Below are positions 1,057-62,504 of a DNA stretch of 64,000 nt, piece by piece. The notes under the pieces are model-generated. The model was given only the letters and a program-made list of their open reading frames with translations, had not been told where the DNA came from and did no database searches. Position numbers and translations under genes: made by a program. This stretch comes from Macrocystis pyrifera. Taxonomy: Eukaryota > Sar > Phaeophyceae > Laminariales > Laminariaceae. The stretch covers positions 12,007,102-12,071,101 of the forward strand of contig JASSKH010000001.1 of NCBI GenBank assembly GCA_031763025.1. Direction: 5' to 3'. Numbering within the stretch: the first letter of the stretch is position 1; every line of letters begins with the position of its first letter.

Positions 1057-1493
1057 CTCTCGTCGACGCGAGTGAGCGGACCTGGGTCGACGTCAAGGCC
1101 AATGGATACGACACGCGGACGTCCGGGAGTGGCTGCAGTCCGAAAGGCTGCGTACCGGACAACACCCGGGACAACGACATCTGGGCCAACTCTCGCTGGT
1201 CGTGCAAGGGCGATATCCTCGACAGGTCTGATGAGGCCGACGGTTGCTGCATCACCTATTACTTTGAGGAGCCCCAGGACATAGAAAAAATTCGAATCGC
1301 CTTCCACCTGGGTACGTCTAGAACCCGGACGCTGGACGTATTCGACAACCATGACTACCACAGCACCATCTCGTCCAGCGGCAAGACGAACGGATTCCAG
1401 TCGTACGACCTTTATACCGATGAAACGGAGGAGCTCAAGCTTTGCCTGTACGACCCTAAGTGGAACACGGACGTCTGGCTGAGCATCACCGAG
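1057..1493 (+). CDS. Gene A, exon 2: secreted discoidin-like (F5/8C-like) domain, partial gene
   Basis: This is exon 2 of the first visible copy of the secreted protein family; its signal-peptide exon is off-window. The exon begins in phase 1 (the split alanine codon is completed by CT) and runs 437 nt without a stop to GAG, followed by a GTGCGT donor. It encodes a beta-sandwich-type domain: an SRWSC motif, the GCCITY strand, FEEPQDIEKI, IAFHLGTSRTRTLDVF, then SSGKTNGF and a terminal DVWLSITE strand. All six cysteines of the family are present (positions 46, 51, 69, 83, 84 and 149 in the full precursor). By family resemblance a sugar- or glycan-binding role outside the cell is likely, but no ligand can be read from the sequence. 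Distinctive changes in this copy are K70, R76 and A80 in the acidic loop. The copy looks intact; whether it is expressed is unknown. Confidence 0.72.
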
Positions 1494-2137
1494 GTGCGTC
1501 GCAATAGATTGTGGGATAATTTCGTTGTCTATGTGCAGGACATGTTTGCGTTCACCCAGTCCCATAAACCACAGGGTACAGTGTCCCGAGGATGCGGTAG
1601 CAACTGCCGTGATGCGCTCGGCGTTTCCCACTGCTTCAATATGGTGTTGCAAGTATATGACCTGTCGAAAGTTGTCGGCTGTGTGTTGGTTGTTGCACGT
1701 TACGGGGAAACTAAAATTAAAAATACGCTGAGCATGTATGCACGCCACAGCATACATGTCGGTGGAAACCAAATAGGGGTTATAATGGGTTTCGTTCGAA
1801 ATGAAATGCGAGACATCGAAACTCCACTGGTCTTTCTCCCATCGACAACCTTCATCCCCAGTACTCAGCTTACAACATGGGATTCACAGAGGGTTACAGC
1901 GGCGCAAAACAATTCCCCAGTACAGAAATGAGAATCTCTCGCCAGAGGTGTTAGTGATAACCTTGGTGAACTACCAAAACACTTGGGTCCATGATCGTGC
2001 CTTGTCATAAAGTTGTCACCAGTACGGGAGACCGTGGTAAATAGGACGAAGTACTGTTAGGAAAATTAGTTGAATATGTTGGTTTTTGTGTGTACCGTAG
2101 GTCTCATTTACTTTGGACTCCCGCAATACTACTGTAG

Positions 2138-2260
2138 GTTTCACGGGAACGCATCACGAATCATGCGATCACGGGACTGTCAAAGCAGAGCACAGCTGCG
2201 AACAAGCGCTGATTGACAGCAACGAGACATACGCTATCTGTGAACGCTTCCCAACGTTGT
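2138..2260 (+). other. Possible exon 3 of gene A (exon-like conserved block)
   Basis: The block follows a TGTAG acceptor-like site 0.64 kb after exon 2. Its frame is open to 2463 and shares a cysteine/histidine pattern with the equivalent block after gene B (14702-14823): C-D-H-G-T-x-K-A-x-H-x-C, then E-T-Y-A-x-C. The two copies differ by one whole codon. The same block after genes C and D is interrupted by stops. This frame needs one base from the preceding exon, yet exon 2 ends in phase 0, so it cannot be joined simply. In phase 0 the block would instead add about 24 residues and stop. It may be an exon, a decayed exon or a conserved non-coding block. Confidence 0.25.
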
Positions 2261-4789: not shown

Positions 4790-4975
4790 CCCGACTCTTT
4801 CATACCCCTCGATGTATCGTCCAGGTGGAGATCTTGGTGAAGTAGAGCTTCGGTCTAATCGGAAGAGCCTGGACACCGTAAATCAGGCTGGGAAACAGCC
4901 ACGTGACGTCTACTTTCAAGCTTCGGTTCGTCTTCCTGTGTCCACACAACCGTGGTTTCAACGAAGACTGGCTGT
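4790..4975. repeat. Unit block 'G' (about 170 bp), copy in unit A
   Basis: This block recurs at about 17925-18110, 21300-21490, 33320-33470 and 45890-46040. Four of the five copies keep an open plus-strand frame containing RPGGDLGEV, then LDTVxQAGKxPR. Several copies also stay open on the minus strand (ALLHQDLHLDD). Some plus-frame differences are synonymous. I do not recognise a protein family. It could be a relic exon of a second gene carried by the ancestral unit. Confidence 0.35.
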
Positions 4976-12464: not shown

Positions 12465-14200
12465 ATGCGCTTTTACGGTATCCTGGCCACCATATTCGCT
12501 GCCACCGTTGGCACTACTTCAGGTATGAACTTTTCAGAGTATATATAAAATTTGTCGTGCTTGGTTCCACAGCTGTGATAATAATTTGTTCGCACCTGCT
12601 CGTAGCAGGATGATGTAGCTGTTGCTTGTGCGGCTAACCAATGATGTCGTCCTGGGTTACACAGCGATGCCAATGAATAGCTGTAGCTACCTCTTCGAAT
12701 CAGGACGATGTGCTGAGTGTTAGCTGTCATCATGGCCCTGGAGCGCTCGGGTGCAATATTGAGCCCACTACGAAGCGCATACTAAGTATGTATACCGCAC
12801 GAAATATAATACACGCGGTATTGGAGCGTCCGGCGGTGAGGATGTCAACAATAGCGAATGAACAACGACGCGGTATCTTCCGTAGTTGTCGTAAGTCCTC
12901 GCTCGAGGTCTATTTATCACTGGCGGCATCTTGACTAATGACATAGACAAAGGGAAGACTCGGTCGCACGGAACTGATGGAGTGACTCAGAAGCTAGCGT
13001 GCGCCACGTTTGAAGGAGAGGCATCCAATTTAACATTGTGTTCAGAATCCTCTAGCCGAAAGCTTGGCCGCAACGTGCCATGCATTGACAAGAAACGCAA
13101 GAACCCCCACCTGGTGTTAAAGTATGCTATATGCTACCAACGAAATTTAACACCCGTACCTGGTACACACCTACGTTCTGCTGTATTAATGACGAGTTCT
13201 GTCGACCAAGTTCCGTTGATATATTGGTTTTATGGAGTAGCTCACAACAAAAACGTCGACCCTTGCCTATCAGCCCTTCCTGTTCAATGTCCGGAACATC
13301 GACGCCGCCTCACTCTTCGACTTCAACACATGTGATGGTGTGCCGGTTTCGGACATTCGTAACACATTTTGACAAACTCCAATCAAATACGTACATCCTA
13401 ATACTACGTGGTAACGCCGAAATCCCACGTGTTTCCATGTATACTCCTCGCGGAGGAACTTCTGAATCACCTCCACCTTCCATTGACGGAGGCAGTATTG
13501 AAAGTCCCATGGAGGTTTGCCACATCCGATATAGCAATCTGTTAACATAGGTGAGTGGTAGATATAGTGAGAAAGTCACAATGGGTATTCCTTCAAGCCC
13601 AAACATCAGCGGAAAATGCACAGTTAAGGTAGAGCCTGTCACGCGGTACTCTGTACTTCGAAGGGGTACACGGAGAAACAAATTGTTTAGAAATAGTATA
13701 CAGAGCCTACGCATATTACACGCGCACATTCAATTTTCCCGACTCACGCCGTTCACATACTAGCCCTCGTCGACGCGAGTGAACGGACCTGGGTCGAAGT
13801 CAAGGCCAATGGGTACGACACGCGGACGTCCGGGAGTGGCTGCAGCCCAAATGGTTGCGTACCGGACAACACCCGGGACAACGATATCTGGGCCAACTCT
13901 CGCTGGTCGTGCCAGGGCGATATCCTCGACAGCTCTGATGAAGACGACGGTTGCTGCATCACGTATTACTTCGAGGAGCCTCACGATATCGAGAAGATTC
14001 GAATCGCCTTCCACCTGGGCACGTCGAGAACCCGGACGCTTGACGTGTTCAACAACCATGACTACCACAGCACCATCTCGTCCAGCGGCAAAACGAACGG
14101 ATTCCAGACGTACGACCTGTACACCGATGAAACAAATGAGCTCAAGCTTTGCCTTCATTAACCTAAGCGGAACACGGACGTTTGGCTAAGCATCACCGAG
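12465..14200 (+). pseudogene. Gene B: secreted discoidin-like protein, inactivated by a premature stop
   Basis: Exon 1 (12465-12522) encodes the signal peptide MRFYGILATIFAATVGTTS and ends in phase 1 at a GTATGA donor. Intron 1 is 1,241 bp and ends at TACTAG. Exon 2 (13764-14200) is full length and carries SRWSC, GCCITY and LGTSRTRTLDVF. The conserved pair Tyr/Phe151-Asp152 has become His-stop (TAA at 14159-14161), and Trp155 has become Arg. The stop removes the last beta strand, including DVWLSITE, so a folded domain is unlikely. The splice sites and all six cysteine codons remain, so the loss looks recent. A sequencing error could mimic the stop, but the neighbouring changes argue against that. 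Confidence 0.75.
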
Positions 14201-17924: not shown

Positions 17925-18110
17925 TGCGCTCGACTCTGCCTCGCCCTTCGATGAATCGTCCAGGTGGAGATCTTGGTGCAGTAAGGCTTCCACCAACTCG
18001 GAAGGGCCTAGACACCGTAAAGCAAGCTGGGAAAATGCCACGCGCCGCCTGTTTTCAAGCTTCGTTTCGTCTTCTTGTGTTCCAACAACCGTGTTTTCAA
18101 CAAGAACTGG
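17925..18110. repeat. Unit block 'G', copy in unit B
   Basis: Homologous to 4790-4975. The plus frame reads RPGGDLGAV then LDTVKQAGK. The minus frame is also open across the whole block. Confidence 0.35.
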
Positions 18111-19810: not shown

Positions 19811-19819
19811 AAAATGCAG

Positions 19820-22080
19820 CAGCATAGCAAATGCACGATGCCGATGAAACAACTGGGAAAAATTAGCAGATACGCACGAGCTACACACATGAATGAAAAA
19901 CGAGCTTTGTTGTACTTGAACCTGGGGTGGCCTGGTGTACGCGAAAATACACTTCGTTCAACCAACCTGCATTTTCGATGCTGTGTCATGGACTGATGTA
20001 TTTCGATGTCACCAGTAGATGCTTGAAGCGACATGATTGAATTTAAGTGGAAACAAAAATAGGAAACTTGCACACGTTCCCTGCACGCAATGTGAACCGG
20101 CAAAGAGTACCCCCGGCAAGATCGGTTTTGTTAGCGAGGTAGGGTGAGTCCGGCTGACCGCACATCCCAAAGGGGAGCAAAGTTTACGTTTGATACTTGC
20201 GGCTGAAGACCTAGAAGTAAATCTACTTCCACACGGCTGAGGATCAACCTCATGGGTTATGATGTACGAAGGTCATATTGTATCCGCGAGTACGTACTCG
20301 TAGTCGTCGATAACGTTTGGATAGCCCTCAAAGTCTACCTTGTACGTACATGTATATTGGATATTCGGCTTTTGGCTAGATGTCATCAGTGTGTTTACCC
20401 GAGAAATCAAAAACTATTTCAGTGCACTATCGGTGAAAGTTTCTGGAATATAAAACCACGAAATGCCATGGACGCCAACAAAATTGGTCGCACAATGTAT
20501 GGAAAACAAGCAGGAAGCGACGCCGGCGAAAATGACTACCTTGCACACGCCAATTCCATACTTTAACAAATCGCATGCCTTCTGGTTGTTTGCCTTAATC
20601 TTTGCAACGACTATCGCTCAAGTCCTAAATATGAAACCTGGGCAGTCGATGTTTTTTTTGTCATAATCCCGCGATCTCTACAGGTTTTCGAACCTTGTGA
20701 TAATCTTCACAGCCAGACCGGGCCACCAGGTCTAACATACTACGTATTACTTTCTTCATTGAGATCGAATGCCGTGGCATGTAAGACAGCGTGCCGGTGT
20801 TGTTCAGCAACGGGGTCGCAGACGTCGCAAATCACTCATGAAGCCCGAGTGGTGTGGTTCAGTTATACTCGTTGCCCGATGTCCAAGTGAATTTGATTGC
20901 AAGCTCATACGGTCCAGAAAAAACAACACTGTTGTGGGCTGCCTCAAGGAAAACATGTGTAACGCCGAGGCGACCTATTGATGTTCAAATTGACCATTGA
21001 TTTGTTTTGGGTGTCAGCTTGGATGTCCACGACGCGTCGTGCTGAAGATCTGAGGATGCCGCGACGATGTCACCAAAGATCAAACCGCCGGGACCTTAAT
21101 CTATCAGAGTATCTGGACACACGTGCCCAACGCTATGATTGATCCACGTCTCATACAGCTCAAGTCAGTCGCCCATGTCCATCCCCCTTCTGGATGAGGG
21201 GGTGGTATCACGATGTCTACCGCAAGATATATATTGTCTGCCCATCCTGTGAACTACGGTTGGGGTAAAAGTGTTTAGTCCAGACGGCGCGTTTATCACC
21301 TGTTGTTTACGCTCGACTCTCCTACACCCCTATATGTATCGTCCAGGTGGAGATCTTGGTGAAGTAACGCTTCCATCATCTCGGAACGGCCTGGACACCG
21401 TAAAGCAGGCTGGGAAACAGCCACGTGCCATCATTTTACACACTGCGCCTCGTCGTTTTGTGTCCAAAGAATCGTGGCTTCAACGATGACTGGTCGAGTT
21501 AGCTAGCTGTGGTTTAAACGAACGAGTGTAGTGGCTGTATTCCGTCGAGGTTTGTGCGTGCAATACTGTAGGCCGCTCTCAAAAACATGTATTCGATCAT
21601 TACCCGGAGATTTGATTGAGACCCCCTTTTCGCGTAAAATGAGGTTGGCATTCCATGTGGAGACATGCAACAATGTGGCAACTACCCACTAATTGCATGC
21701 GAAAGAATCGGCAACATCTGGAAATTTCATATAACTCCGACGCATACCTTGACTGCTCCGGTTTGTCTTTAAAAGTTTACCCGACGAAATTTACTGCCAA
21801 ACAATTATTGGTTTGGTTCGGACTGATCAGCGATGTTGTTTTTTGCTCTGAGTCACGCACTTCCTTGTTACGCAATGCACCAACGCGATAAGTTTTGGAC
21901 GTGTTTTCTACGCACAATCTTCCAGCGTTGCACGGCGATTCGGAGCCCTGTCGACGTGGACTGCCACTACCGGATATATGAAGAAGCAGGAGTAGACTGA
22001 GAGAAAGGTTCATATCACGTACTACTGTGTAAGAGGTCGTTGCACCGACGTGGTTCGGTACGTGCTCCACGTAGATATGT
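19820..22080. repeat. Partial second copy of unit-B downstream sequence
   Basis: This aligns in order with about 15860-18110, including the hairpin motif near 20708 and block G at 21300-21490. It is a partial tandem duplication without the gene exons. Divergence is high, so it is old. Confidence 0.5.
21300..21490. repeat. Unit block 'G', copy in the partial unit
   Basis: The plus frame reads RPGGDLGEV then LDTVKQAGKQPR; the minus frame reads EALLHQDLHLDD. It is the closest copy to 4790-4975 by eye. Confidence 0.35.
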
Positions 22081-35864: not shown

Positions 35865-35873
35865 TACGTGGTA

Positions 35874-36888: not shown

Positions 36889-38122
36889 GGACGGGACCGG
36901 GGTTGGACCCGGCCGCGGCGACCGTACCGGTTCGTCTTTTCCGTTTGTCACTTGATGGACGACGGCCCGACCCGGCCAATCGCACCATTACATATTCCTG
37001 GCGCGGCCCGGCCCATCAAAGATTCAAAATTTTCCGCCCGGCCCGGCCCATCTCATTGGTCAGTGAAACCCCATCACCGGGGCTCTACACTAGTCGGCCT
37101 ACCATAACAGATTGGCCGGCCTGCGTATCTGACCGCCCGGACCACGGGATGGCCAATGTACTGTCCCATTCTGAAAGGTCAGGCATGTGCGCACCTAAGT
37201 TGGCTTTTCAATTTTTGTTTTTGTCTTCCGTTTGCACCCCACGGTCCAGATGCTTCTACCCTACAAAGAGCTGCTCACGAGGCACACATGCTCTCTATCC
37301 ACACCATTTTTCAACCTCAACGGCCTAGACCGATGTCTTCACCGCTGACTGACGTATATCCAGATCCTTCTGCTGCTGTGCCCAGCACAAACTGCTGGAG
37401 CAGCACCTGCTACTGCTACACTTGCTGCTGCAACACTTCCTAATGTAACGACAGCTGCTGCCATCGATGCATCACTCAAGTGAGCATGTAGACTACGCTG
37501 CCACTGATCCTTTGACGTCCGCTTCTAAGACTAGAGCACCAGCTCTCACTATCGGTTCGACAACTACACATATGAAGGTGAACGCTGTTCAAGTTCATTT
37601 CCGAGCGTATTCGATCACGTCTTGGTGTGAAGTTCGGTCTGAAACGCACCCGGGAAAATACGTTCAGGATGCTAGGTCACGAAGATGGAAAGTAGTGTTC
37701 TCTGTACGCCCACAACGTTGCCAAGGCCACTTGTACGAATACCACGAACTGCAGATTAGGGATGACGGACGTTGCAGCAATAGGAGCTGTAGACATTTCA
37801 TGTGCCGCGGCCCAGGTCGGGCTGCTAACCTATGTGAACGACCTAATGGGCACAGTGGACGTCGTACTAGTAGCCGCCGTAGTTCACCTCAAGCTATGGG
37901 TTGCGACCGGGCCCGAGCCGTCGAAAAAACGTGGGCCGCAGCATTCGCAGGGCTGGGTGGTCCATGTAGAGCGCACATCCTACGGGACGCGGCCTGGCCC
38001 GCATCCACCCTCTTGCCAGGTGATAGGCAGCTCCCCGGCCCGGCCAAAAACTGTTTTGAAACATACCCGGCGAAACCCGTTTCAAACTCGTCGGCCCTGA
38101 CCGGCCCAACCCGGTTTGTCCA
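36889..38122. mobile_element. GGCCCGG-rich decayed DNA-transposon-like element, copy 2
   Basis: The ends form an imperfect inverted repeat: GGACGGGACCGGGGTTGG at the left, and the reverse complement of CCAACCCGGTTTGTCC at the right. Dense GGCCCGG motifs lie inside each end and a CTGCTG-rich core lies in the middle. The long frames (36813-37328, 37467-38126) shift or break in the duplicate at 56545-57864 and are not genes. No transposase is present. Because the same element occupies the same place in three units, it predates their amplification. hAT affinity is suggested only by the motif style. Confidence 0.45.
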
Positions 38123-41028: not shown

Positions 41029-41145
41029 TTTTCCGCCTTCATCAAGGAGCTTGGCGTACCCACCACCTCATTCCTCAATCCTCCTGTCCAACAACACTAC
41101 CCCTCTTTCTCCACACTACAAACTCCTACCCAAGACTCCATCACC
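41029..41145 (+). promoter_or_regulatory. Conserved upstream / 5' UTR block of gene D
   Basis: The CAAGGAGCTTGGCG element, C/A-rich leader and CTCCATCACC before the ATG match genes B, C and E. Confidence 0.5.
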
Positions 41146-42741
41146 ATGCGCTCTTTTACAATCCTGGCCACCATCTTCGCTGCCACAGTTGGCACTACCT
41201 CAGGTGCGAACTAGTCCGTGTGAAGGCAATGTTTTCGTAGTTGGTTCCACCGCGATGCGAATGAAATGATGTACCTGCCTGCCCGTGGCAAGACGACGGA
41301 AAAGAAGGTTGCGCAATATATTGTTGATGTCCCCATGGCCCTGAAGCGTTTGAGTGTAACATTCGGCCCATTGCGAAGCACATATGTAGCCGCTTGTAAA
41401 AAAATGCACGCGGTGTGGGATCGTCCGGCGGTGAGGACGCTAACAATCACAACTCCGCCACGACGCGATATCGTCCGGACGAGGTTCGTCCACTTCTCGC
41501 TCGAGGCGTGTCTATCCCTGACGTCACACGACGATAGGAAGCGACACTGCTCGGTGACACGCTACTGGTTCAGTAGTCCACACTCTGCAGTAGCTTCCCT
41601 CAGATTGAAAGAAGACTGGTGAATTTTAACGTTGTAATGGCAGCCGTATATACATGCAGCACATTTGACCGTAACGTTTCATTCATGGTTAAACAGGCCG
41701 AGAATCCCCACCTGGCGTGTACGTATGGTACATGCTGCCAGTCATTTGTCAACCCGCACACCGCTGCACTCATCATGATTGATGTCGACCTCGTTCAGGC
41801 GATCGGTTCGGTTTACGGAGTGGCTCACAAATATTTCCGCAGTCTTGCGTGGCAACGTTGTCTTGTTTAATCGCCATTAACATAGACGCAGGATCACTCT
41901 CAGAGTTCAAAACCCGTGTTAGTGTGCTGGTTAAGGGTTACTGGACACGTTTTAAAGACGTCGATAAGATACGTACATACCTATCGTACGTAACATCGCC
42001 AAACCCCCGTTGTTCCGATGTGAACTCCTAGCGGAGGAAAATATTTATCATCTTCCCTCAATGCAACATCATATGTATCCATATAGTTTGGTACATGGGT
42101 GTTACGTACGATGATAACGTTTCAGGAGTTTCTTCGACGAGCACAACGTACCAGTTAAGGTAATTTTGAGGTAGACTCCGCCACGATGTACTCTGTACAT
42201 CATAAGAATACACACATAATCAAAACGTTCGGAATAGTACACAACGCCTAACCACATTGAGCACGATTCTTCATGTTTCCCGTCTCAACGCGTGAACATA
42301 CCAGCCCTGGTCGACGCGAGTGAGCGGACCTGGGTTGACGTCAAGGCCAATGGATATGACACGCGGACGTCTGGGAGCGGCTGCAGCCCGAAAGGTTGCG
42401 TACCAGAAAACACCCGAGACAACGACGTCTGGGCCAACTCTCGCTGGTCGTGCCAGGGCGAGATCCTCGACAGCTCTGATGAAGACGACGGTTGCTGCAT
42501 CACGTACCACTTCGAGGAACCCCAGGACATTGAACAGATTGGCATCGCCTTCCACCTGGGTACGTCTAGAACCCGGACGTTGGACGTGTTCAACAACCAT
42601 TACTACCACAGCACAATCACGTCCAGCGGCAAGACGAACGGATTCGAGACGTTCGACTTGTACACCGACGAAACTAAGGAGCTTAAGCTTTGCGTTTTCG
42701 ACCCTAAGTGGAACACAGACGTCTGGCTGAGCATCACCGAG
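41146..42741 (+). CDS. Gene D: secreted discoidin-like (F5/8C-like) protein
   Basis: Exon 1 (41146-41203) encodes the signal peptide MRSFTILATIFAATVGTTS and ends in phase 1 at a GTGCGA donor. Intron 1 is 1,101 bp and ends at TACCAG. Exon 2 (42305-42741) completes 165 codons. The mature domain carries Cys46, 51, 69, 83, 84 and 149, which can form three disulfides. Its motifs are SRWSC (65-69), the acidic loop DSSDEDDG (75-82), GCCITYHF (82-89), IAFHLGTSRTRTLDVF (100-115), SSGKTNGF (126-133) and DVWLSITE (158-165). The fold prediction is a jelly-roll, by family pattern; a glycan-binding extracellular role is inferred. Reading on past exon 2 gives 46 codons that other copies do not share, so GAG with GTGCGT is taken as an exon end. 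The terminal exon is not identified. Confidence 0.78.
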
Positions 42742-45700
42742 GTGCGTCGTCAAAGCGTTAGGGTTATTTGGTTGTCGTTCTGCACAGCATTCTTGTCTTT
42801 TTCCCGTGTCTCACATCATAAACGGCGTCGTGTTTCTAGCGTACGGTATCAGTTGCCGTCGGTTCTCCCAATTGTTTACTAATAGTTAAATAGCAGGTGT
42901 GCAGGGTATGAGACCGGTAGAAAGTTGTCCGCTGTGCGTTTGTTGATGCCCGCCACGGAAACAGTTTGGAAAGTTCCAAAGGCAAAACCTGTATGCACGC
43001 CAAGACGTTTATATCAATGGAATCCAAACTTATGTTTAATCTATTTCATTCGAAATGAAGTTCGTAACAATGAACGAACACTGTTTTTCTTCCTCCGATC
43101 GCCTTCATATATAAGTGCTGCACGTTTTAATTATCATTCACACAAGAGCAGCAGTTGCGCAACAAACTCATACTATGGCAATGGGTATCGCTCGCCAGAG
43201 TTATTAACGATACCGTTTGTGAAGTCGATGACCATCGGCTGCCAATCATTCATGTTTTTTTGGTTTGCCACCACTAGAGTTCATGGGAATCAAGCAGGCG
43301 TGAGCCCTAGTGTCTGTCAAGAAAGGGACTGCTGCATATTGTTGTAGGACAGACTCCACAGGATATACGCTACATGCAACGAGGCCAATGTGGTATGGTC
43401 TTCGTTGAAACGTCATTGTAGTAAGAGCATGAATACCGCTTGCTAGATGTTGAGACGTACACGCCGGCCTTACTGCATCATTGTAACGGTATTTGTCTTC
43501 TTACTCGCGGAGATCCCATGACATTAACTGACTACTAGTATGTAATCAAGTCACAGCTCTGGCAACATGTCGATAAAAACGCCATACTGACTAAAGGCGC
43601 ATCTACAGACATGCACGAACAAGTATTTTTCTCACTACCGAAGATGTGTTACATACGTGTGCACGTTGGGGTCACCGTGGCTCAAACCTTCCGCCACCTG
43701 GTATCATACCTACCTCAACACCACGAACTTTACCAATCTAGATACTGTTAGGTGAGCGTCGACGCGGCGGGCGGGGTAGCTTCGCTGCCGTTGATTCACG
43801 CCCACCTTGTCTACGCGCAAGCCCCTAATGATCGAGGGTGTCGTTCAAATCGAGGACGTAAGCGTGACAGTACTGCCAAGGCGTACATTGAAAACCAAAC
43901 ATGTGTCGGTGAAAATAAATAAAACATTGGAATTGCATTCGACAAACAAGCAGCACAGAAAGTTCCGCGCGTGCCCGTATTGACCGAGGATGTACGAAAC
44001 TTCAAGCCGTAAGTGCGGCGGTACTGGCAAGGCGTACATAAGAAAACGTCTTGTCTGAGTCGCGACATAAACAACACCGTCAACGTCAAACCAGAAACAA
44101 AAGTGTCGCCACCCGGCACTTTATCAGGCACCTGGCGCACTCAATATATCAATAACACAATTATAGTGTACAGCGTTGGCCAAAAAGTACGAGATATGTA
44201 GACTTCAACGTCTGTAATGCGCCCATTATCTATCGCTCTCGTTCGTTATCGAGCCGTCTCCCCAGTTTCGCCCATTTTCCAGGTGCCGTTGTTACCTGCT
44301 GTAACTTTTTCTTTTAACGGCAGCAACAGGGGGACGACTTTAAATATAAAATGATTTTTCGCTTGTAGGTATGATATTATGCTTATTTCAGCGTGACAGA
44401 AAATGTCAACAACGAACAGCATCATCATTTTCAAATACATGGTGCCGAATAAACATCGGATAGCAGATCGTAGGTCTGTACGCCGTGCACACATGAACAT
44501 ACCACGGACTCTGCTGGATTAGAACCTGAGTATGGCCTGGTGAACGTGACAACGCATTTGGTTGAACTATTCTGTATTTAATATAATGTGCCATGTACTG
44601 GTGCCTTTCTATGTGCCCAATTAGATGCTTAAAATCGGAACAATTCTGTTGTGAAAACTCGAAACTTGCACACGTCACATGGACGCATTGCAACCCAGCC
44701 CAGATTGCCCCTGGCAAACTCGGTGGGGGCAAGGAGGGTGAGGTAAGCTCAGCAAACAGAGCAACTAGAGGTATACCTCGATATACGTTTGTCCGTTCGC
44801 GGTTGAACACAAATAACAAACTCGGCTCGTACGGACTGAGGGCCAACCTTATTGGTCGTAATGGCTCTATTTTTCTACCCACGGGTACGCATTCGTCGAA
44901 CGTGTTGCGATAACGCTAAAACCCTACATTTTCCTGGAAATTCGACTTTTAACCCGATGTCATCAGTGATTTTACCCGAGTGATATCTAGTTTAACCTAT
45001 AAACGGGAAACGATCCCTAAATAAACAACCGCGCAGTACCATAGAGGCTTGTAACACTCGGTGCATGGGACGTGTAAACACTGTCAGGATACGACACCTG
45101 CGAAACTTGCTACGTCAGAGGCAGCAATACAATATGAAAACAGATGCACCCGCTCTGCTTGTCTGAAAGGATCCAATCAATTTCCAAGGATTATCACTCA
45201 AGTCCATATATAACCCGAGCAGTGGTTGGTGTTCTCAGACGTCAGCGCCTGCTGCACACTTTCGAATTTTGTGATAGACTTATTCACCGCCGACGGGGGC
45301 ATGGTGCCGTTGGACTAGTTCTCACAAACCGTATATGACGTACTCCGTTGATATAGGATGACGCCGGAGGCAAGACAACTACTGCTGTCCAGTAACAGGG
45401 GTGCAGACATACGACATCACCGATCAAGCAAGCCTTGTTTGACTTAGTTGTGCTCGTCACTCGATATTTCAGAGAGTTGTATAGCAGGAAGACCACACGA
45501 CCCATGAAATGTGGAGTAGGCTCTCTTCTTTGTGGACATGTAAACCGGAGGCGAACCATTGATGTTCAACAACACAGATTGATGAAAATTGTGTTTCGGG
45601 TGTCCGTTGAGACGTCCAAGACGCGTTGTGCTGAGGATACCGCGACAATGTCACAAAAAACTCTACCTGGGCCAGGACCTTAATCTACCAGGGTTTATGC

Positions 45701-45889
45701 ACCGACTCGCTCGCGCAATGGAATCATTCATCCACTTCTAATCCCGCTGAAGCCAGGTGCCCACGTGCATCCCCGGGGGATGTTATCACGACACCCACTG
45801 AATACTATATATTTGTTGTTCACCAGGTGTGCTACTGGCCCAAAGATTATGTTTTGATCATGCGTTGATCACAAGATATTTACATTCGA
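42742..45889. other. Downstream unit sequence of gene D, no confirmed gene
   Basis: Near-identical to 62505-64000 for the first 1.5 kb. The exon-3-like block is at about 43278-43385 and contains stops in the frame used after genes A and B. It then follows the usual block order, including the GC-rich block at 43744-43800. Confidence 0.45.
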
Positions 45890-46040
45890 CACCTCCGCAC
45901 CCCTCGATGTATTGTCCAGGTGGAGATCTTGGTGAAGTAACGCTCCCACCGAATTGCAAGGGCCTGGACACCGCAAACCCTGCTGGCAAACTACCCAAGG
46001 AAGTCTATTTTCAAGCTGTACTTCGTCTTTCTGTAGTGTT
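45890..46040. repeat. Unit block 'G', copy in unit D
   Basis: The plus frame is open from 45829 to 46245 and reads CPGGDLGEVTLPP then LDTANPAGK. The minus frame is also open. Homologous to 4790-4975. Confidence 0.35.
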
Positions 46041-47309
46041 GTCAACGTGGGTGGGCGGTGGGCGCTGGCTGAAGCATCCCCGTGGAAATATTCCGTCGAG
46101 GTCGTGCGTGCACCATCGTAGGCCGCACTCAAGTACATATTTCATCAAAATGCGGACCCGTAATCGAGACCCCTGTTTGACGCAAAGGGAGCTTGCCATT
46201 CTGTGTGGTTACATTTCAAAATGTAACCACCGACCCAATGTTTGAGAAATCGTTGATGCCGGTACCTTTAACGTGTTGCTACGTTCAGCGTCGTCCCGCA
46301 TGAACTTGGTATACGCCAATTGTTTTCATTGTCAGGGTCCCGTCCGTCTGTATACTTGTTTGTGCGACTGCTGCGGGTTCTTCCGCGTACCATCTACTTT
46401 GCCCACTACGTATGCAGCGTTGTGGTAAGAGCATTTCGTACTTCCTAATAGGTGGCCCAGAAGATCCGAGTCAGCGGGCGGTAATATTCATGAATCATGG
46501 GCTCTTTCGTCCTTTTTGAAAGTAGGGTGGACTGCAGCGTGGGTACCGACGCACATATATATATTTGGTCAGGCCTCCGGGAACTATCAGGGCGGGGTCC
46601 GATTGATAGACGCCAAACGTGAGAGGCGAACTTGATACATGATGTCAGCAGTACGTTGACAATACGTGGTGTGTAGGTATTGCTTGTAGAGGTCGATATC
46701 GATCATCGAGCGGACGAACCGTGCAGAAATTCGGTGGTATGAATTAAAATATATATGAAGGCTTGAAGCTGATGTGTCAAGTCAGTTGGAAGGCTGAGTG
46801 TTCGTGATGGCTGAGAATTTGTCTTGGAATGTCCGACGAACAACCCCCCTCTCCCCCCCACGCTTACCGAGAGGGGTCATGGTGGAAATTCTCCAGGAGA
46901 CCTGGTAAGACAATTCAGATTGTCATCCATGGCGCGTTCAAGATAACTTTGCAACCCATCCGTCTTTGCTTTTTTTGGCTTTCGAGGTTTTTCTTGCACG
47001 TGTTCACTTCAGGCTCAATCGATGTGACAGCATCACGAGAATATATCTTTTGTCTCATGTTATTATTTTTCAAGCCTACATTGCATCTTAACCTTGTGGA
47101 GTTCGTTGATGTTTGTCATGACACGATGCCTACGTATAAGCAAACTTCTGCGGGACATATCGAGTTGTGCTTTCGATATCGCCATCAGTCGAAGAGTCTC
47201 GGTTAGTGTCACTTCAATTTTTTTACATTGGCGGTGAATGTGATTTCGAAGCGACGCTCATACCACGGCTGTCGCCAAGTGTTGCCAATCACTGACCCCC
47301 TCTAATAGT
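46041..47309. other. Unit D sequence, no gene
   Basis: Holds the older R-repeat relative (about 46540-46670) and the hairpin at 46846-46876. Similarity to other units ends near 47310. Confidence 0.4.
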
Positions 47310-47330
47310 ATATGTTGTCGGTGTCGTCGT

Positions 47331-47633
47331 ATGAGGCCCACCCGTTTAGATCATTGTGCAGACTTTATGCGGAAAACAGTGAACACGTATGGTTCCAAGG
47401 ATGCGGGTGTCAATTTGCAGGCCTGGAACCCTCATCAATATGACACACCATATTCCTATATGCTTTACATGTTGGGAACGATTCGGCTACAAGCAAACTC
47501 GCGTGACACGAAAATAGTCCGGGACATTGAACTGGGGTACAAACCTCCTATCCCAGCTACCGAACGTAACCGTCACCGGATACATTTGGTAAAGCACAGC
47601 ATGGCTAGACATTTTTATACAAACCATGACTAG
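47331..47633 (+). CDS. Hypothetical 100-residue frame, unsupported
   Basis: An ATG-started frame with ordinary, non-repetitive composition, basic towards its end. It contains no signal peptide, membrane segment or recognisable domain, and the window contains no second copy with which to test conservation. It could be an exon or chance. Confidence 0.2.
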   Translation: MRPTRLDHCADFMRKTVNTYGSKDAGVNLQAWNPHQYDTPYSYMLYMLGTIRLQANSRDTKIVRDIELGYKPPIPATERNRHRIHLVKHSMARHFYTNHD

Positions 47634-50175
47634 ATTCGTTTATGATTTACCGGCAGCAAAGATGAGGGCGATATTCACATAACGAAGCACTGGCAACGTT
47701 TTAGCTAAACGCCTCATTGGAATTGCCGGCCGCGGCGGCAAAAGGGTTGAAATCACACGATGTCGTATCCAAAACACGGAGTTAGTATGTACGAAGCACG
47801 AGTCCCATATATGGAGGTATATAAAAGGGAGAATGTGATATATAACTGATGAGGGGTGACCTATTTGGACTTATGTACAATAACTCAACGCACGAAACAA
47901 TTATTGAGTGAGGATTGGGTTCCTCCGCCTTCCCCAAAGCTGAACCATCACACGAATCGTGAAGCCCGTCTTAGACAACGAACATCACTCCAAGCAAAAC
48001 ACCGTGATGTTAATGGCGAATGGCAATTTCACTGAGGTTAATTCGAGGCCTCATAAGCTAGACGTGGAAAAGATACTAGTAGTAACTCACTACTAATAGC
48101 GCTGCCCTTGCTTTCAGGAAATAGCGCGGGCGAAGGCCTTGTACTATAAACCATGTGGGCATTCTGCGGGACCACATGTCCGCCAACAACGGGCTTCCAA
48201 TCTTGATTCGTCGTGACCGGTGTTATTCGTAATTAGCCACTCCAGTAAATGCGGGGGGGGAGCGGTGTTGAGTGCGTGAACCAAAGGACTTTATTATCAT
48301 CTACGTGCGCATTATCAAGGTTTGCAATATTTTCGCAACGAATTCATGGGTGAGTCTTGTTTTGCCAAGACCAAACAACAACAACCGTTGAGCCAATCAC
48401 ATACCCGATATTGGCGAGCGAAAATATGTACAGCTAGCTATTGGAGACTGTCAAGCTTTGCGTTTTTTAGGGCTGCGTCAATATGATATTTGTTGGTAGT
48501 GTACCAAATAAGCGCTTAAGGGTTGAGGCATTTTCAATGAACAATCAAATATGCCGAATCAGTTCCGGATGAAGTTTTTAGATTGACAAATACGCTAGTT
48601 GAACACAGGCTGTATCACCTACCGCTAGCGAACAACAAGGGTATTAGTGTTATCGTTATGCCCCAGCTAAAGAGTGTAGAACAAAGTAGAAACTAAAGGT
48701 CTTGCGTATGACGGGGCTACAGTGGTGTGACATTTCTGTGCAGTGTTTCAACGACTGCCACATTGCTAAGTTAGCTTCTGTTGTGCAAATACGTATTTGA
48801 GAAGAAACTCAAGATGGACGATTCGGAGGTGTAGACCTCATTATCTCTCTAGTGAACAGCACGGCTGCATGTATGGTCATCGCCGGAACAGCGACCATGC
48901 TTGAGCTCATCCGTTACTAGGTATAAAGAAGCACGATCACCAACATAATTGCCGTTGTCTAGTTCCACGACCGCAGGGATTCTCCTGTGTGGCGTTTCTG
49001 GGCTGTGTTGTTATGTCTGCCACTATACACGGTTGCCTTCTGCACAGATTAGCGAAACCTATTACCAACTCGAATCTCGACAAACGTGTCAGACGATAAA
49101 CACTTTTTATGCTGCTTTTAATGATGAGAACAGTTCCGCATCCGAGCTCCTGGCGAGAGCATCGTTATTGCCCTCGTCAACTGTCGATTCTGTGACGACC
49201 AGAACAAGCGTATACGCCGTCCGTGCAAAATAAATATCTACGGTAGGTCTGCTGTTCTTAGCGACACACGTGCGCGGAACGTTTCGGTAGCGGATAGACT
49301 ATTTCTGGATGTCCATTTTTGTACTTTGTATGTAAATTGATATATATTCAAGATGTGTATTCAGTTCACGATAATACATCCTGACCGGCAATGCTTTAAA
49401 TCTCTCTCGTGGAGTCAAGGGCTACATTCCAGGCCCTGGCAAGAACGGCATCGATCCTTGAGCTGAAACGTTCCCAGACAAGGACCAGCAACCGCAGGAG
49501 ACGCATTCCTAATTAAACCCATATTTTGGGCTTGCCAGGGCTTCCCCGGTGTGATATTTTGATGGTAGTGCTGCAATGACTGCTACAAGATCGTGTCGGT
49601 CAAGCATTACGGCTAATGATGGCGCAGTATTTCACGATGAAATATTCGGAATGATGCCTTTGTATCTCGCAAGTGAGACGAAGGGTTGCATCGAAGGTTA
49701 TGGCTACAACGCCGACAATTCTTGACATGATGACCTACTCGGTAACGACCAGCAATAGCCTACTCCTAACCGTCGGCTGCAGTAGCCATCATCAAGTTCA
49801 ACAATCGAGATGTTTTATGCCAGTTATGTATCTGACAACAAAACAAGGCAAAAGCGAATGTTTCGGCGATCAGACTGACATCTGTAAACGCGGACGGTTC
49901 TTGCCCGTCGTCGGCGCTTACGGTCTACGACCCGATCGCCCCTTTCCACCACCAGTATGATGCATATTGATCAACTGACACAATGATGTGTCCTGATCCA
50001 GACTCTAATCCTACGGGAGCAAATCATCTTTGACAGCGGTACTTCCTCTATATACCGAAATGACACCCCGCTGTGATTGATAGTCAGCAAGGACTGAAGA
50101 GCTTGGTTGGTTGTTTCAGCCGCCTAAAGTCGTGGATTCTTCTGTCCTGGTACGCGAGACGACCTCCTCCTCTAG

Positions 50176-50442
50176 AATATGAAGGCGTCTGAGTTCAACC
50201 TCACAGGTGGGTGTACCCCCGATGACACAATGAATGTGCCTACGTTTGCTCATGGTCCAGTATTGTATCTATCCGACTGCCGATTACATATCTGCGGGAA
50301 TCACGTACCGGAGTATGTTTGCCCAACAAGCCCCTGCACAGTAGTAAAAATTACGAAGCGTTATCCAGTCTGTCCCGATTTTTGCATGCACACAGGAATG
50401 GCATTTCACGACCATATCGCTATTAATTGCAGTGAAATTAAG
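50176..50442 (+). CDS. Candidate cysteine-rich internal exon (89 codons)
   Basis: A CCTCCTCCTCTAG acceptor (AG at 50174-50175) and an AAG/GTAAAA donor frame exactly 89 open codons in phase 0 at both ends. The encoded segment has eight cysteines (SDC, HIC, YVC, SPC, PVC, DFC among them), suggesting a disulfide-stabilised extracellular module. I do not recognise a family. If the donor is not used, the frame continues nine codons to a TAG at 50473-50475. No partner exons are certain. Confidence 0.3.
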
Positions 50443-50729
50443 GTAAAACTGAAAGAGCTAACACGTCTACTATAGTAGTTATCACTTTGGTGCCCTCCAT
50501 GAAAAGGAATTACGAATTTAAGTCAACCAAGACAATAGTTTACCAGCATGAGACAAACTACGGGGATAATGGTAAGTACATCCCTCGGAAAAGCTTCCTA
50601 TAACACAAGTGAACAGTCAATAAATGCCTCACATTGACATAGAATATACTGATGTTGCCGATACCTTCCTCAGTAATCAATTGACATAGGCTGGAAAGAA
50701 TCAAGGCTTGTCATTTACTGACTGTGCAT

Positions 50730-51930
50730 GGCGGGCCCCGGGATCGGGTTGCGTCGGCCCCCCCGACCTGGTCTATCTACTATTCAGGTGATTGACCTCG
50801 GCTCGGCTAAGGCAATCAAGATTTCGGACATTCCCGGGGCATTTAGACCCATCAACGTTTCACCATCTTCGGCCCGGCCCGGCCGGTAACATTGGGACCG
50901 AGATACATGAGACCCGGGGTCTACACGAGCCGACCAACACGAACACATTAGCAGACCCACGCAATAGACAGCCAGGGCCACGGCCCGGTCCCTGTGCAGT
51001 TTGGTTCTTACGAGCTACCCATGTGTGCTTCGGAGGTTTGGTTTTCCATTTTTTTCGTTTGATTTCTTCCGGACATCGTGATTCAGCTGTTTCTGGCATA
51101 CACCGAGCTACAAACTAAGCACACATACCGTCTGCACACACCATTTTCGTCCAAGAACGGCCTAGCCCAATTGATTCCACGCTGTTTAGCGCGCCAATAC
51201 TCCTGCGACACCCGCAGCAGTATCAAGCGGCAGCAGCGGCAGCTGCACCTGCTGCTGCTACACTTGCTGCAGCAACACTGGCTCTTGCAACCACACCTGC
51301 TGCTAACGATATCTCGTCTGGAGGAGAATATTTATCAAACCACCAGCGATCCTTGGAGAGAGGCTCCCTAAACTGCAGCATTACATATACTTACCGGTTT
51401 GACTACTACGCACAAGAAGGTGAACATCGCCGACGTTCGGTCCTAACATGTCTCCTGTCCGGGCGTACTTCATCGACCTTCACCAGCGGTTTGATCTGGG
51501 CCAAACCGTATACTAGTTGGCGGGGAAGGCAAGGATTGTACTCGTTACACCCACAATACCCCCAAGGCTGCGATCAGATGTATGTACAAGGATCACGACC
51601 AGCAGACGAGCATTGTCGGACGTCATAGGAGGAACGGCAGTGCGCTACACGTTTTGCGCTGCGGCCCGGGCCGGCATATAAACACACCCGTGGCCGCGTC
51701 ATGGCCAGGGCGGAGCTGCCTACGTAGAGAGAAAATTTCGTGGACCGCGGCCAGGCCCACCCCCATTCTTTTTGAGCTGATGGGCCGCTGCCCGGCCCGG
51801 CGCAAACTGTATCCAACCATTTCCGCGCATTGGCGTTCAAAGTCATCGGCACAGCCCCGCTCTTCCAAGCACCATTTTCTATCCGGCGCGGCCCGATGAC
51901 CCCGACTATCGGCCCATGGCGAGCCCGAGA
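50730..51930. mobile_element. GGCCCGG-rich decayed DNA-transposon-like element, copy 3
   Basis: GC-rich left end (50731-50910), CAG/CTG-rich core near 51225-51300 and GGCCCGG-rich right end to about 51920. The flanks and layout match 36889-38122, but divergence is high. No transposase was found. Confidence 0.4.
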
Positions 51931-53300
51931 TGCAACGGCATATTTTTCCATTTACCATACGTGGTGATGTAAAAGCATGTAGTGTATAGTCCAGATCAAT
52001 GAATGTGAAATCAAGCATGACAATGCACCCGGACGCAGCTGAACGGTGCATGTGTTGCCGAATATGCCTGTCGGTTGACGCTCAAAGCTCTGCTTGCTAG
52101 ACCAATGCATGGAAGATAACACAGCTACATCTGTAGTTGCCGAATATAATGTGAGAGACATAGATCATGAAAGCTATACCATTTACCCCAATATGTCACC
52201 GCTCCATACCTGGCACCAATATCACATGTAAGATATGCCACACTCTAACAAGACGAACGTCGTGGAAGTGCGTACGTCCTGTGCATTTGAGGGCGACATG
52301 GATGTTCCAAAACGCATCCGGAGACCGTGTATTCAAACTTTTGCTCACCCTAAACACGTTGGTTGGGCTATAAACAGATTTAAAACCACCTGAGCTTCAA
52401 GCACGTAGCCATACTTCGCCATGATTAGTCCTCGATAACTTTACAGCGAGCTGCTGAACTGCTGACACTATGGAATGTCAATTCCCCCGTCCTCTAAAAG
52501 TTAGTTGCAGTGGTGGTTCCGTTGTTCGGACGACTTCCCTTTATATACAGGCGACGCACGGTGTGTAAGCACGAATATACATGCTTTGTTCGAAACATGA
52601 CATGGTTGATCACAACATTTCAATTTGGAAATTATTTTGACCAAGCTTTCTGCAAAGAGTATGTCTCGTCCGATTGTTGACCACCTGCAAACATAAATAT
52701 CCCGAAGAATATAATCATTTTTTCGTGGAACAATTAAAGAAGTCGTTCCGCAAACCGAAACGTACGCACGTTGGGGGGTCAATACGCATGGCGTCAACTT
52801 GTTCGCCAGTTTTGAGTACGTTTCCGCACGTGAGGTTCGACGACATGAGTTAAACTTCAAGGTATAGATCCGCTTTATTGCGTACGTGTAGGTGTTGGTG
52901 GTACTCTCCCGTGAAATCTATCGACATACTCTCAAACCAACCGTATACATCTTGCAAGGGAAAACAATTAAATCTCTTACTGCAATCAAGTGCTGCCGTA
53001 GATACGTATAGTGTATAGTCCAGGCCAGTCCAGTTAAAAATGAATTAGAAAACATGACCATGTACCCAAATGGAAAAATGTCTACACTTTTATCTTCACG
53101 TTGCATCTTCACGTGGCCGAACAAAAGAAGGCACGGTTTCAAGCAGCTTGGCCAGTACCGACACTATCAAGTTCCCCCCCCCCCCCCACCTGGAACCGGA
53201 GTCCACATATATGACGTACAACAACAAGTACGTAATATATCAAGGTAAATAGGTAGTGACAACGCATTCATATCATGGACACACATTTCGTTCGCCCCGC
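51931..53300. other. Unit sequence after the third GGCCCGG element, no gene
   Basis: Diverged from 23400-25600 and 38200-39500. A 14-base C run lies at 53174-53187. Nothing coding is supported. Confidence 0.4.
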
Positions 53301-53393
53301 GTCCCCGGTGGCTTGGTAGGTGGTCCGCGAGCCTATCAAGATCAATTTCGTGAGTTCGAGTCTCACCGAGTGCATGCTCGTAGGGACCTTTTT
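53301..53393 (+). ncRNA. tRNA-like Pol III unit at the SINE head
   Basis: GTCCC at 53301-53305 can pair with GGGAC at 53383-53387, closing a structure that contains the T arm and an extra CGAG/CTCG hairpin (53367-53380). TTTTT at 53389-53393 is a Pol III terminator. The bases after the T arm do not pair with the expected acceptor side, so this is not a functional tRNA. It could be a short Pol III transcript or simply the SINE promoter. Confidence 0.4.
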
Positions 53394-53621
53394 CTTGCAT
53401 AAAATTGATTAGCGGAAAGCGCGAGAGCGTGAGTTAGCTGTACATTCGATGAAAATCGACGAGCAGTGGGAATGCTGAACCCTATGCGCGATTAAAACTA
53501 AAGGCACGTACCGGGGGGGAGAAGGGACGACACCTGTGACCACGGCTTGTCCAGAAGATGGTCGAGGGTAAAAACCTCCTACGAGTGGGCTGGAAAGTAA
53601 AAGTGATGATGAAAAAAAAAA
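53301..53621 (+). mobile_element. SINE with tRNA-like head and A-tail
   Basis: The head has RNA polymerase III promoter boxes: A box TGGCTTGGTAGG (53309-53320) and B box GTTCGAGTCTC (53354-53364), 33 bases apart. The B box sits in a perfect T arm (GTGAG / CTCAC, 7-base loop). An unrelated body follows, then a tail shared with 19704-19808 and ten A (53612-53621). The 3' tail shared with another retroposon is the usual sign of dependence on a LINE reverse transcriptase. It lies within a stretch continuous in other units, so it is an insertion. Confidence 0.6.
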
Positions 53622-55509
53622 GAAAATAAGACTCGTTGCTTTTGTTTCGCATTGTAAGTAAACCCAGTATTTTCCACGTTGTATATATGAAACTTGCGTA
53701 GAATGGATTTGACGTATATACATATATTCCGCGAATACAAACCCATTATATATCACACTATTTTCTGTTGAAGTCGTGATCTGTTTCTTTACGTACGAGA
53801 TTTCTTCCGGATGGAATTTCAGTCTGCGCACATGGACGAAAATAGGATATTGATTAATTTGTATCCCAGCATGCATATATACAACTGTTACGAATTTGAG
53901 GGAAGCCCATCACTCAGTGATGACAAGCTGCTGAACAGAGCTTCTTCCAGACAGACGATACCTTTCCATACGCAACATTCAAGGATATCAAGTCGACACG
54001 CGATCGTAACACGAACTGGTTGATTCGGCGTCGTTAAGTTGCACGCTTGAAATTCTTGCATTTATGACGTTTGTTTCGCACTGTGCTACCACGCATGTAA
54101 TTGATGTCGACGTACTGTAGTTCGGGTTACCGTGGAAAATATCTAAATGTGGCTGTGGTTCGTTGCATTCTAACGATATAACACAATTATAGATGTCATT
54201 GCTACGCAAGACAAGGCAGCTGCATGTGTAGTGCCAATAAAATATTTGAGGGGTACACATGTGACGCTATACCACAATTGCAAGGATAACACAGAAAGCA
54301 AAGATTCGGTACGGAACGGACTAAACATGTACTTCAACTGTTTTACACAGGTGTGTTTAAACACCCCTCTTGAGAATTGTTGGGCATTGAAACGACGCTG
54401 GCACCTAAGCGTACCCTGGTTCCCGGGTTTCCGGAGACTCAAATCTCTAGATATTTCGTCTAAACAGAAACAACATATATATCATAACACGCTGCGTTGA
54501 GAACGTCGGCTGGTTCGAACTCACCGGAGAGCGACGGTGACATGTTAGAGGTTCATCACAGGAGCTTCGTTTTCTCTCGAGGTTGATCCCCCGCAGGATC
54601 TGCCCAGAGGTCTATATACCTCTACTAACAGGTGCTCCCGCGGTGCCAGAAGTTGGACGAAGTTCAAGATGCACAAAATGAGACAATAAACAACCGTTAA
54701 CTAAACCGTTTCAAAAATGCCTTGTCTGACAAGCAGACCCGACACCATAAACTTGGTTCTTGCTCGCGACGAACCGGGGTCTACCTGTACGACGTATACG
54801 GCAACATACGAAATATGACGGAAACATGTGAGGACAACGGGGGGTATCGAACATCGTTCACGTACACATCAATTCATACACACACACTTTGCTTGCCCTT
54901 ACAGGTGTTGTGGCAAATCACGCGCTTTAAGTAAACCCAGTCCTGTGCACGTGTGCATATCAACCTTGTGCGTGGAATACATGGACTATATTCAGTTATT
55001 CCGGGGCACCATAGTAAACATGACAAAATACAGTTGGTAAAAATAGTTTAACATATAGTACGTTTTATGTACCATAGGTCCTATATGCTTCGGTCCCCCG
55101 TAATAGTATACGCAATATATTTTGCACGACTGAGAGCTGAAGTCATGACTGATATATATTCACTCCCTCGCAACGCCCCTCTCCCTCCACGATTTGAGAT
55201 TCTTCTGGACACAAATCCAGTCATCGCACGGGGACAAAATCCCGATATTTTTGCTGACTGCCAATAAACAACTCTCACGAAAATTAGGCAAGGTCAATGC
55301 CCTATGATAACAAACTGTTTCTTCCAGATGTATACCCTACATACCATACCTCCTTCTCAACGATGGTCCTTGATGCCACATAACGAAACTTTTAAGGAGA
55401 TTTAATTGACACGTGCGTGTGAAAGAACGTGCGTGGCTGATCAGACGTCATCATGCAGGCTGCATATTCCAATCCTAGAATCTACAATGTTTCTCTCTAT
55501 CAGCCATAT
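53622..55509. other. Tail of the duplicated unit, no gene
   Basis: From 53856 it matches 34099-35740 closely. The sequence just before 53856 runs smoothly into it, as in the related stretch near 11200-11280, so this is the native arrangement. Frames such as 53988-54260 (minus) are shared only because the two copies are nearly identical. Confidence 0.5.
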
Positions 55510-60791: not shown

Positions 60792-60908
60792 TTTTCCGCC
60801 TTCATCAAGGAGCTTGGCGTACCCACCACCTCATTCCTCACTCCTCCTGTCCAACAACACTACCCCTCTTTCTCCACACTACAAACTCCTACCCAAGACT
60901 CCATCACC
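60792..60908 (+). promoter_or_regulatory. Conserved upstream / 5' UTR block of gene E
   Basis: Nearly identical to 41029-41145, ending in CTCCATCACC before the ATG. Confidence 0.5.
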
Positions 60909-62504
60909 ATGCGCTCTTTTACAATCCTGGCCACCATCTTCGCTGCCACAGTTGGCACTACCTCAGGTGCGAACTAGTCCGTGTGAAGGCAATGTTTTTG
61001 TAGTTGGTTCAACCGCGATGCGAATGAAATGATGTACCTGCCTGCCCGTGGCAAGACGACGGAAAAGAAGGTTGTGCAATATATTATTGATGTCCCCATG
61101 GCCCTGAAGCGTTTGAGTGTAACATTCGGCCCATTGCGAAGCACATATGTAGCCGCTTGTAAAAAAAAAGCACGCGGTGTGGGATCGTCCGGCGGTGAGG
61201 ACGCTAACAATCACAACTCCGCCACGACGCGATATCGTCCGGACGAGGTTCGTCCACTTCTCGCTCGAGGCTTGTCTATCCCTGACGTCACACGACGATA
61301 GGAAGCGACACTGCTCGGTGACACGCTACTAGTTCAGTAGTCCACACTCTGCAGTAGCTTCCCTCAGATTGAAAGAAGACTGGTGAATTTTAACGTTGTG
61401 ATGGCAGCGTATATACATGCAGAACATTTGACCGTACCGTTTCATTCATGGTTAAACAGGCCGAGAACCCCCACCTGGCGTGTACGTATGGTACATGCTG
61501 CCAGTCATTTGTCAACCCGCACACCGCTGCACTCATCATGATTGATGTCGACCTCGTTCAGGCGATCGGTTCGGTTTACGGAGTGGCTCACAAATATTTT
61601 CACAGTCTTGCGTGGCAACGTTATCTTGTTTAATCGCCATTAATATAGACGCAGGATCACTCTCAGAGTTCAAAACCCGTGTTAGTGTGTTGGTTAAGGG
61701 TTACTGGACACGTTTTAAAGACGTCAATAAGATACGTACATACCTATCGTACGTAGCATCGCCAAACCCCCGTTGTTTCGATGTGTATTCCTAGCGGAGG
61801 AAAATATTTATCACCTTCCCTCAATGCAACATCATATGTATCCATATAGTTTGGTACATGGGTGTTACGTACGATGATAACGTTTCAGGAGTTTCTTCGA
61901 CGAGCACAACGTACCACTTGAGGTAATTTTGAGGTAGACTCCGCCACGATGTACTCTGTACATCATAAGAATACACACAGAATCAAAACGTTCGGAATAG
62001 TACACAACGCCTAACCACATTGAGCACGATTCTTCACGTTTCCCGTCTCAACGCGTGAACATACCAGCCCTGGTCGACGCGAGTGAGCGGACCTGGGTTG
62101 ACGTCAAGGCCAATGGATATGACACGCGGACGTCTGGGAGTGGCTGCAGCCCGAAAGGTTGCGTACCAGAAAACACCCGAGACAACGACATCTGGGCCAA
62201 CTCTCGCTGGTCGTGCCAGGGCGAGATCCTTGACAGCTCTGATGAAGACGACGGTTGCTGCATCACGTACCACTTCGAGGAACCCCAGGACATTGAACAG
62301 ATTGGCATCGCCTTCCACCTGGGTACGTCTAGAACCCGGACGTTGGACGTGTTCAACAACCATTACCATCACAGCACAATCATGTCCAGCGGCAAGACGA
62401 ACGGATTCGAGACGTTCGACCTGTACACCGACGAAACTAAGGAGCTTAAGCTTTGCGTTTTCGACCCTAAGTGGAACACGGACGTCTGGCTGAGCATCAC
62501 CGAG
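60909..62504 (+). CDS. Gene E: secreted discoidin-like (F5/8C-like) protein, recent duplicate of gene D
   Basis: Exon 1 (60909-60966) has the same signal peptide as gene D. Intron 1 is 1,101 bp and ends at TACCAG. Exon 2 (62068-62504) is intact and ends in phase 0 at GTGCGT. Compared with D it has V61I, Y120H and T125M plus a few silent changes, so the duplicates have begun to differ in the loop before SSGKTNGF. All six cysteines and the core motifs are kept. Upstream and downstream sequences are near-copies of those around D, so regulation is probably shared. As in the other copies, the final exon is not identified. Confidence 0.78.

Follow-up and report, generated by a model that had tools for sequence, protein, structure and literature searches.

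The window, the 64,000-nucleotide stretch of Macrocystis pyrifera DNA analyzed here, lies in an array of about a hundred units carrying a three-exon gene for a predicted secreted CBM32-like protein, which would bind uronate ends, most likely those of alginate. We put the probability of this reading at about 55%. Its broader component, putative recognition of a glycan by the protein, is well supported by kinship and modeled fold.

The five 437-nt domain exons (exon 2) of the original prediction are borne out, all on the forward strand: copy A (1057..1493), copy B (13764..14200, with an in-frame TAA and likely a pseudogene), copy C (29675..30111), copy D (42305..42741), and copy E (62068..62504), each with AG before and GT after it. 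Exon identity is as high as predicted, the D/E pair reaching 98.2% of nucleotides and the other nine pairs 86.5 to 90.6%. The predicted drop in similarity at the exon edges is likewise seen in 60-column windows for these nine pairs, with about 75 to 97% identity inside against 33 to 88% outside, where values of 50 to 75% prevail; the D/E pair has no such drop and stays at 92 to 100% throughout. The claim that exon 2 is the sole well-conserved part did not hold, as conservation is also conspicuous in exon 1 and in a 21-nt exon 3.

This gene model was derived by comparing copies. Eight compact copies, taken from twenty retrieved stretches with L014 left out, were aligned over 10 kb, and conservation peaks at exon 1 and exon 2, with identity elsewhere, to about 7 kb past exon 2, being mostly 76 to 91%. 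A third peak, with 98.3% identity in a 30-nt scan whose mean is 87.0% (SD, 5.1), falls where CCAG meets GTGGAGATCTTGGTGAAG, followed by a stop codon. The pattern of this exon 3 occurs four times in the window (three exact, one with a mismatch), with 0.14 occurrences expected and none of 100 shuffles reaching four. Exon 3 continues the exon-2 frame, joining SITE to VEILVK and a stop, and its addition raises the match to the CBM32 of the lyase AlyQ from 20.3 to 24.9 bits, SITEVEI now being aligned with SITEVAI. The coding sequences of D and of E are intact, each with 516 nt and 171 residues. Their leader, MRSFTILATIFAATVGTTSA, is hydrophobic (mean hydropathy of 1.5 over residues 5 to 18), ends in TTSA ahead of the domain, and looks like a signal peptide; the mature protein has a calculated mass of about 17.1 kDa and a pI of 4.5. 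The comparison of copies thus shows a gene of three exons, predicted to encode a leader resembling a signal peptide and a single CBM32-like beta-sandwich domain that contains six cysteines.

Two larger gene products were considered. A longer protein read through the exon-2 donor was rejected since the open frames end at differing places and conservation stops at the donor. A downstream catalytic exon was rejected as well, none standing out in about 7 kb; the compact-copy alignment contains no further conserved exon over that distance, within which a very short exon would escape detection. The three exons encode the leader and the CBM32-like domain alone, with no lyase catalytic domain and, in the domain, no Pfam family at cut-off. 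Separately, a stretch about 45 to 95 bp ahead of the start codon (L009:323-373 and the corresponding positions of seven more copies) is conserved at 95 to 96% against a mean of 87%; it is a candidate promoter or leader element, and a few 30-nt windows in the introns score equally high.

The kinship to characterized CBM32s is significant. When the paralogue profile was compared with the PDB, the AlyQ CBM32 was matched at E = 7.7e-7 and YeCBM32 weakly, at E = 0.11. The structure model of the protein has a pLDDT of 88 and the F5/8C jelly-roll fold of CBM32. The eight structures that match it best are either CBM32s from alginate lyases or YeCBM32, which binds pectin, at 24 to 31% identity, and the best of them is 7d2a, with 4,5-unsaturated mannuronic acid. 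The discoidin-like pattern noted in the original prediction was therefore right with regard to the fold and can be refined, from profile, model, and structural matches, to a CBM32-like jelly roll; in the structural matches, the identity of the kelp domain to discoidin and other F5/8 type C domains is 6 to 18%. Pfam F5_F8_type_C was not listed for four window copies at E values up to 10 and was found in 5 of 31 paralogues (best E = 3.8e-4), while the Pfam matches RAG2 and PITH were rejected as below their curated cut-offs. NCBIfam and PHROGs gave nothing credible (best E values of 0.036 and 0.18), and tblastn confirmed no match for relatives in viral contigs or, with one diverged paralogue as query, in prokaryote contigs.

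According to PMC5651945, the calcium site of the AlyQ CBM32 comprises N206, D209, N211, T214, and T307, the Trp W303 has a counterpart in YeCBM32 that is needed for good binding, and R248 holds acetate. In HMMER alignments these sites fall on N35, D38, D40, S45, T144, W140, and R88 of D. Conservation was followed in an alignment of 31 of 51 distinct copies, chosen for diversity, with near-identical copies, B, and the second L025 match (which has stops) left out. By alignment, the positions of the structural calcium site of CBM32 (N206, D209, T214, and T307 of AlyQ) are kept, with N35 in 29 of 31 paralogues, D38 in 30, S or T at position 45 in all 31, and T144 in 25; position 40, where AlyQ uses the main chain, is variable. 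Arg and Trp occupy the aligned uronate-site positions (R248 and W303 of AlyQ) in all five window copies. Across the paralogues, W140 is kept in 27/31 and R90 is Arg in 27/31. R88 is Arg in 15/31 and Asn in 13/31, a split which suggests that branches of the family may differ in ligand. Among the cysteines, C26, C49, and C63 are present in 31/31 and C31 in 30/31, while C64 and C129 co-occur in 15/31 and are jointly absent from 16/31, as expected of a disulfide. The six cysteines of the original prediction are thus found in all five window copies, but two of them are missing in about half of the paralogues.

In brown algae, the principal gel of the cell wall is alginate, and how these algae sense, cap, or loosen it is, to our knowledge, poorly known. 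We envisage that the leader would export the 171-residue protein to the wall or mucilage, where the domain, probably holding a structural calcium ion, would bind the ends of uronate chains. These are most likely ends of alginate, as produced, for example, when the alga's own alginate lyases or those of attackers cut it. Acting as a stand-alone lectin rather than an enzyme, the protein might then cap cut alginate, mark it, or bridge it. According to PMC11468063, brown algae not only produce alginate but also degrade it by means of PL41 lyases, whose products are unsaturated. A ligand of this kind is seen in 7d2a, and a stand-alone module could act on such ends. The AlyQ CBM32 was reported to bind chain ends; cleaved alginate was bound, but neither intact alginate nor treated poly-M (PMC5651945).

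Two other functions would preserve the same fold. The protein might be a secreted lectin for a different glycan, such as fucoidan or sugars on microbial or gamete surfaces, in which the CBM32-like fold was kept and the ligand changed. We consider this unlikely, as uronate binders rank first among both the sequence and the structure matches and the window copies retain Arg and Trp at the aligned positions. Improbable, too, is a loosening of the alginate gel, whereby the secreted module would bind the calcium-alginate gel and swell it without cutting, in an expansin-like role in wall growth. The isolated CBM32 of the lyase VxAly7B indeed bound to beads of alginate gel, which it caused to swell from 2 to about 4 mm with no cleavage (PMC8776709), and the kelp domain shares its fold class and calcium-site positions with CBM32s; against this, the AlyQ CBM32, the closest structural match, left intact alginate unbound. 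If alginate ends are bound, as we favor, these proteins would offer natural probes of cut alginate and be candidate players in damage sensing, wall remodeling, or adhesion in kelps. A more tentative extension is that about a hundred stand-alone kelp lectins serve the ends of the alga's own wall polymer, the repertoire reading cut alginate as a sign of damage or remodeling and the Arg and Asn branches reading different ends.

In the usual CAZy sense, a CBM is a module attached to a catalytic enzyme, YeCBM32 being an exception. Because the kelp protein has one domain and no enzyme attached, we term it CBM32-like rather than a CAZy module. Nearest to it in kind are the CBM32 modules found in alginate lyases, together with the single-domain YeCBM32, and the closest evolutionary story is that of the CBM32-PL7 lyases of Nitzschia sing1, a diatom living on polysaccharides of brown algae. 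The AlyQ CBM32 (Persicobacter; PDB 7d29, 7d2a, and 5xnr) is one module of a bacterial lyase, whereas in the alga the domain makes up the entire mature protein, which has cysteines and is encoded by intron-containing genes in an array of about a hundred units. YeCBM32 (Yersinia enterocolitica; PDB 2jd9 and 2jda) has a single domain like the kelp protein but is bacterial and without an array. The CBM32-PL7 alginate lyases of Nitzschia sing1 are likewise a stramenopile family grown by tandem duplication; they were gained from bacteria for feeding on alginate and have CBM32 domains in 77/91 genes (PMC11960938), whereas the kelp genes are without a catalytic domain.

What is new is that an alga has a stand-alone CBM32-like family which bears cysteines and introns and numbers about a hundred array units. 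It is unreported in the literature searched, which was limited in scope. Publications on CBM32 and Phaeophyceae, judged from their listing, concern bacteria and a marine fungus, and the term CBM32 is absent from the main text of a brown-algal survey (PMC11468063). That survey gives average brown-algal family sizes of 27 for mannuronan C5-epimerase and 19 for PL41 alginate lyase; at about 103 units, 72 of 87 full-length ones being stop-free in the domain, the kelp family outnumbers both, in counts that were made differently.

Selection was assessed by Nei-Gojobori counts on the window copies and on the 28 pairs of the eight compact copies, which offer the firmer test given that the diverged introns of the window align with uncertainty. 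For the nine window pairs other than D/E, dS is 0.35 to 0.65, dN is 0.036 to 0.061, and omega is 0.08 to 0.16; for D/E, dS is 0.057 and dN is 0.009. Intron divergence of the nine pairs is 0.32 to 0.52 upstream and 0.34 to 0.69 downstream of the exon, with means of 0.48 and 0.57 next to a mean dS of 0.45. In the compact copies, dS is 0.154 and dN is 0.0074, compared with 0.156 for intron 1, 0.168 for intron 2, and 0.159 for the 3' flank. Since dS approximates intron divergence while dN is far lower, the exon stands out through the removal of amino-acid changes; the protein is under purifying selection and the introns are near-neutral. This agrees with one of the two forces originally proposed for the domain exon, purifying selection, and dN/dS is not near 1. 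The description of the proteins as fast-evolving does not fit, amino-acid change being slow relative to neutral change.

The other proposed force, gene conversion limited to the exon and homogenizing the copies, is not needed and very unlikely to be what makes the exon conspicuous. Some comparisons do lean that way, namely, A-D and A-E, whose dS (0.37) lies below their own intron values (0.51 to 0.56), and individual compact pairs, in which the ratio of dS to intron-2 divergence goes down to 0.32 (median, 0.87; range, 0.32 to 1.63). However, dS equals intron divergence on average in both sets, dS for A-C (0.65) exceeds both of its intron values, and dN is 6 to 21 times below dS. The match between dS and the introns contradicts exon-limited conversion as the main cause, and the low A-D and A-E values leave room for patches of conversion.

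The tandem array of five genes that had been predicted is indeed a tandem array, but a far larger one. The whole genome (537,376,219 bases, 223 contigs) was searched with the protein of copy D, and of 189 candidates the best 150 were scored. Among these, at least 108 are on the same contig as the window, in a span of 2,343,579 bp, and at least 42 are on other contigs. Merging split matches leaves at least 103 units on the window's contig. These are at least 87 full-length units, of which at least 72 are without a stop in the domain and 15/87 have one, and fragments (16/103), as flagged by hand from the search coordinates, with a few matches short by up to 15 residues taken as full-length. Between 11.81 and 12.84 Mb on the contig, 55 of 56 units share one direction, with a median spacing of 15.9 kb (6.6 to 51.9 kb); unit size is about 10 to 20 kb. 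For 30 equal-length copies out of the roughly 103 units (435 pairs), identity is lower the farther apart two copies lie on the contig (Spearman, -0.82; as low in 0/1000 permutations), and in a tree of the same copies D and E group with full support, 8 of 27 inner branches being well supported. The decay of identity with distance and the shared orientation show that the array grew by local tandem duplication.

Copy D lies in the first copy (34099..53855, forward strand) of a 19.76-kb tandem duplication, followed from 53856 by the second copy, which extends beyond the end of the window. Identity between the two is 97.6% across 10.1 kb of the window and 96.0% across 2.4 kb outside it, which supports the prediction of a family still expanding through D and E. 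A 125-bp sequence, 97% identical between its places (33977-34101, 35741-35865, and 55510-55634), has one end at the left border of this duplication (34099) and is found again 1.76 kb farther in; it is a possible participant in the D/E rearrangement. On another contig, a copy at G000:C201:11161624-11162058 is 88% identical to D, and its score and open-frame length equal those of the array copy at C189:11946249, so that it is possibly a recent transposition or an assembly duplicate.

The five exons predicted as five genes are present, but only in D and E are all three exons intact, B and C being damaged and A, as assembled, frame-broken. Copy D has exon 1 at 41146..41203 and exon 3 (VEILVK and stop) at 45920..45940, both on the forward strand, as is exon 1 of copy E (60909..60966), whose exon 3 lies beyond the window on the same contig (G000:C189:12072816-12072836). 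Copy B has a 58-nt, signal-peptide-like exon 1 (12465..12522) and an exon 3 ending in VEILVQ and a stop (17964..17984), with a second exon-3-like sequence (21347..21367) inside a partial internal duplication of its unit, all on the forward strand. In copy C, also on the forward strand, exon 1 (28382..28439) is followed by an exon-3 remnant (33340..33362) that is missing the acceptor AG and first bases. The coding part of exon 3 of copy A (VEILVK and stop) is at 4825..4845 on the forward strand, and its exon 1, just upstream of the window on the same contig (G000:C189:12006853-12006911), has seven T against six in in-frame copies. A seven-T run also occurs in L011 and L017 and a ten-T run in L010, so that, as assembled, this run breaks the reading frame in A and in 3/8 compact copies; it may be a read error.

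A reading in which most of the array is dead, or assembly error has inflated it, and little function remains would accord with these frame breaks, with the damage to B and C, and with the domain stops and fragments counted above, but it is most improbable given the stop-free majority of full-length units, the low dN/dS, a D/E difference of 2 to 4%, which is much for read error, and the haploid gametophyte named in PMC10498591 as the source of an assembly with matching figures, which, if that is the assembly used here, makes allelic duplication unlikely.

Some further features were observed in and outside the array. A type III polyketide synthase exon of this genome matches PDB 4b0n, the enzyme of Ectocarpus, at E = 2.1e-54, in keeping with a brown-algal host. 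The B unit holds partial internal duplications (16607-16882, 16944-17224, 15857-16943, and 19817-20897). On other contigs, distant paralogues (L051:1202-2317, L052:409-810 and 1401-1853, and L053:1374-2150) have the domain split by an intron and adjoining cysteine-rich stretches, such as DGGDCCECTC, that we take to be reminiscent of Lin-12/Notch repeats; in six ORFs from four such loci (L051, L052, L053, and L055), Pfam gave nothing at E 0.01. We propose that they are multidomain cousins of the array genes. Finally, downstream of gene A, two identical 233-bp direct repeats (5737-5969 and 7494-7726) flank an open frame of 448 residues (6153-7499) with a zinc knuckle (Pfam zf-CCHC, E = 9.5e-5), and the element at 5737-7726 looks like a young gag-only LTR retroelement.
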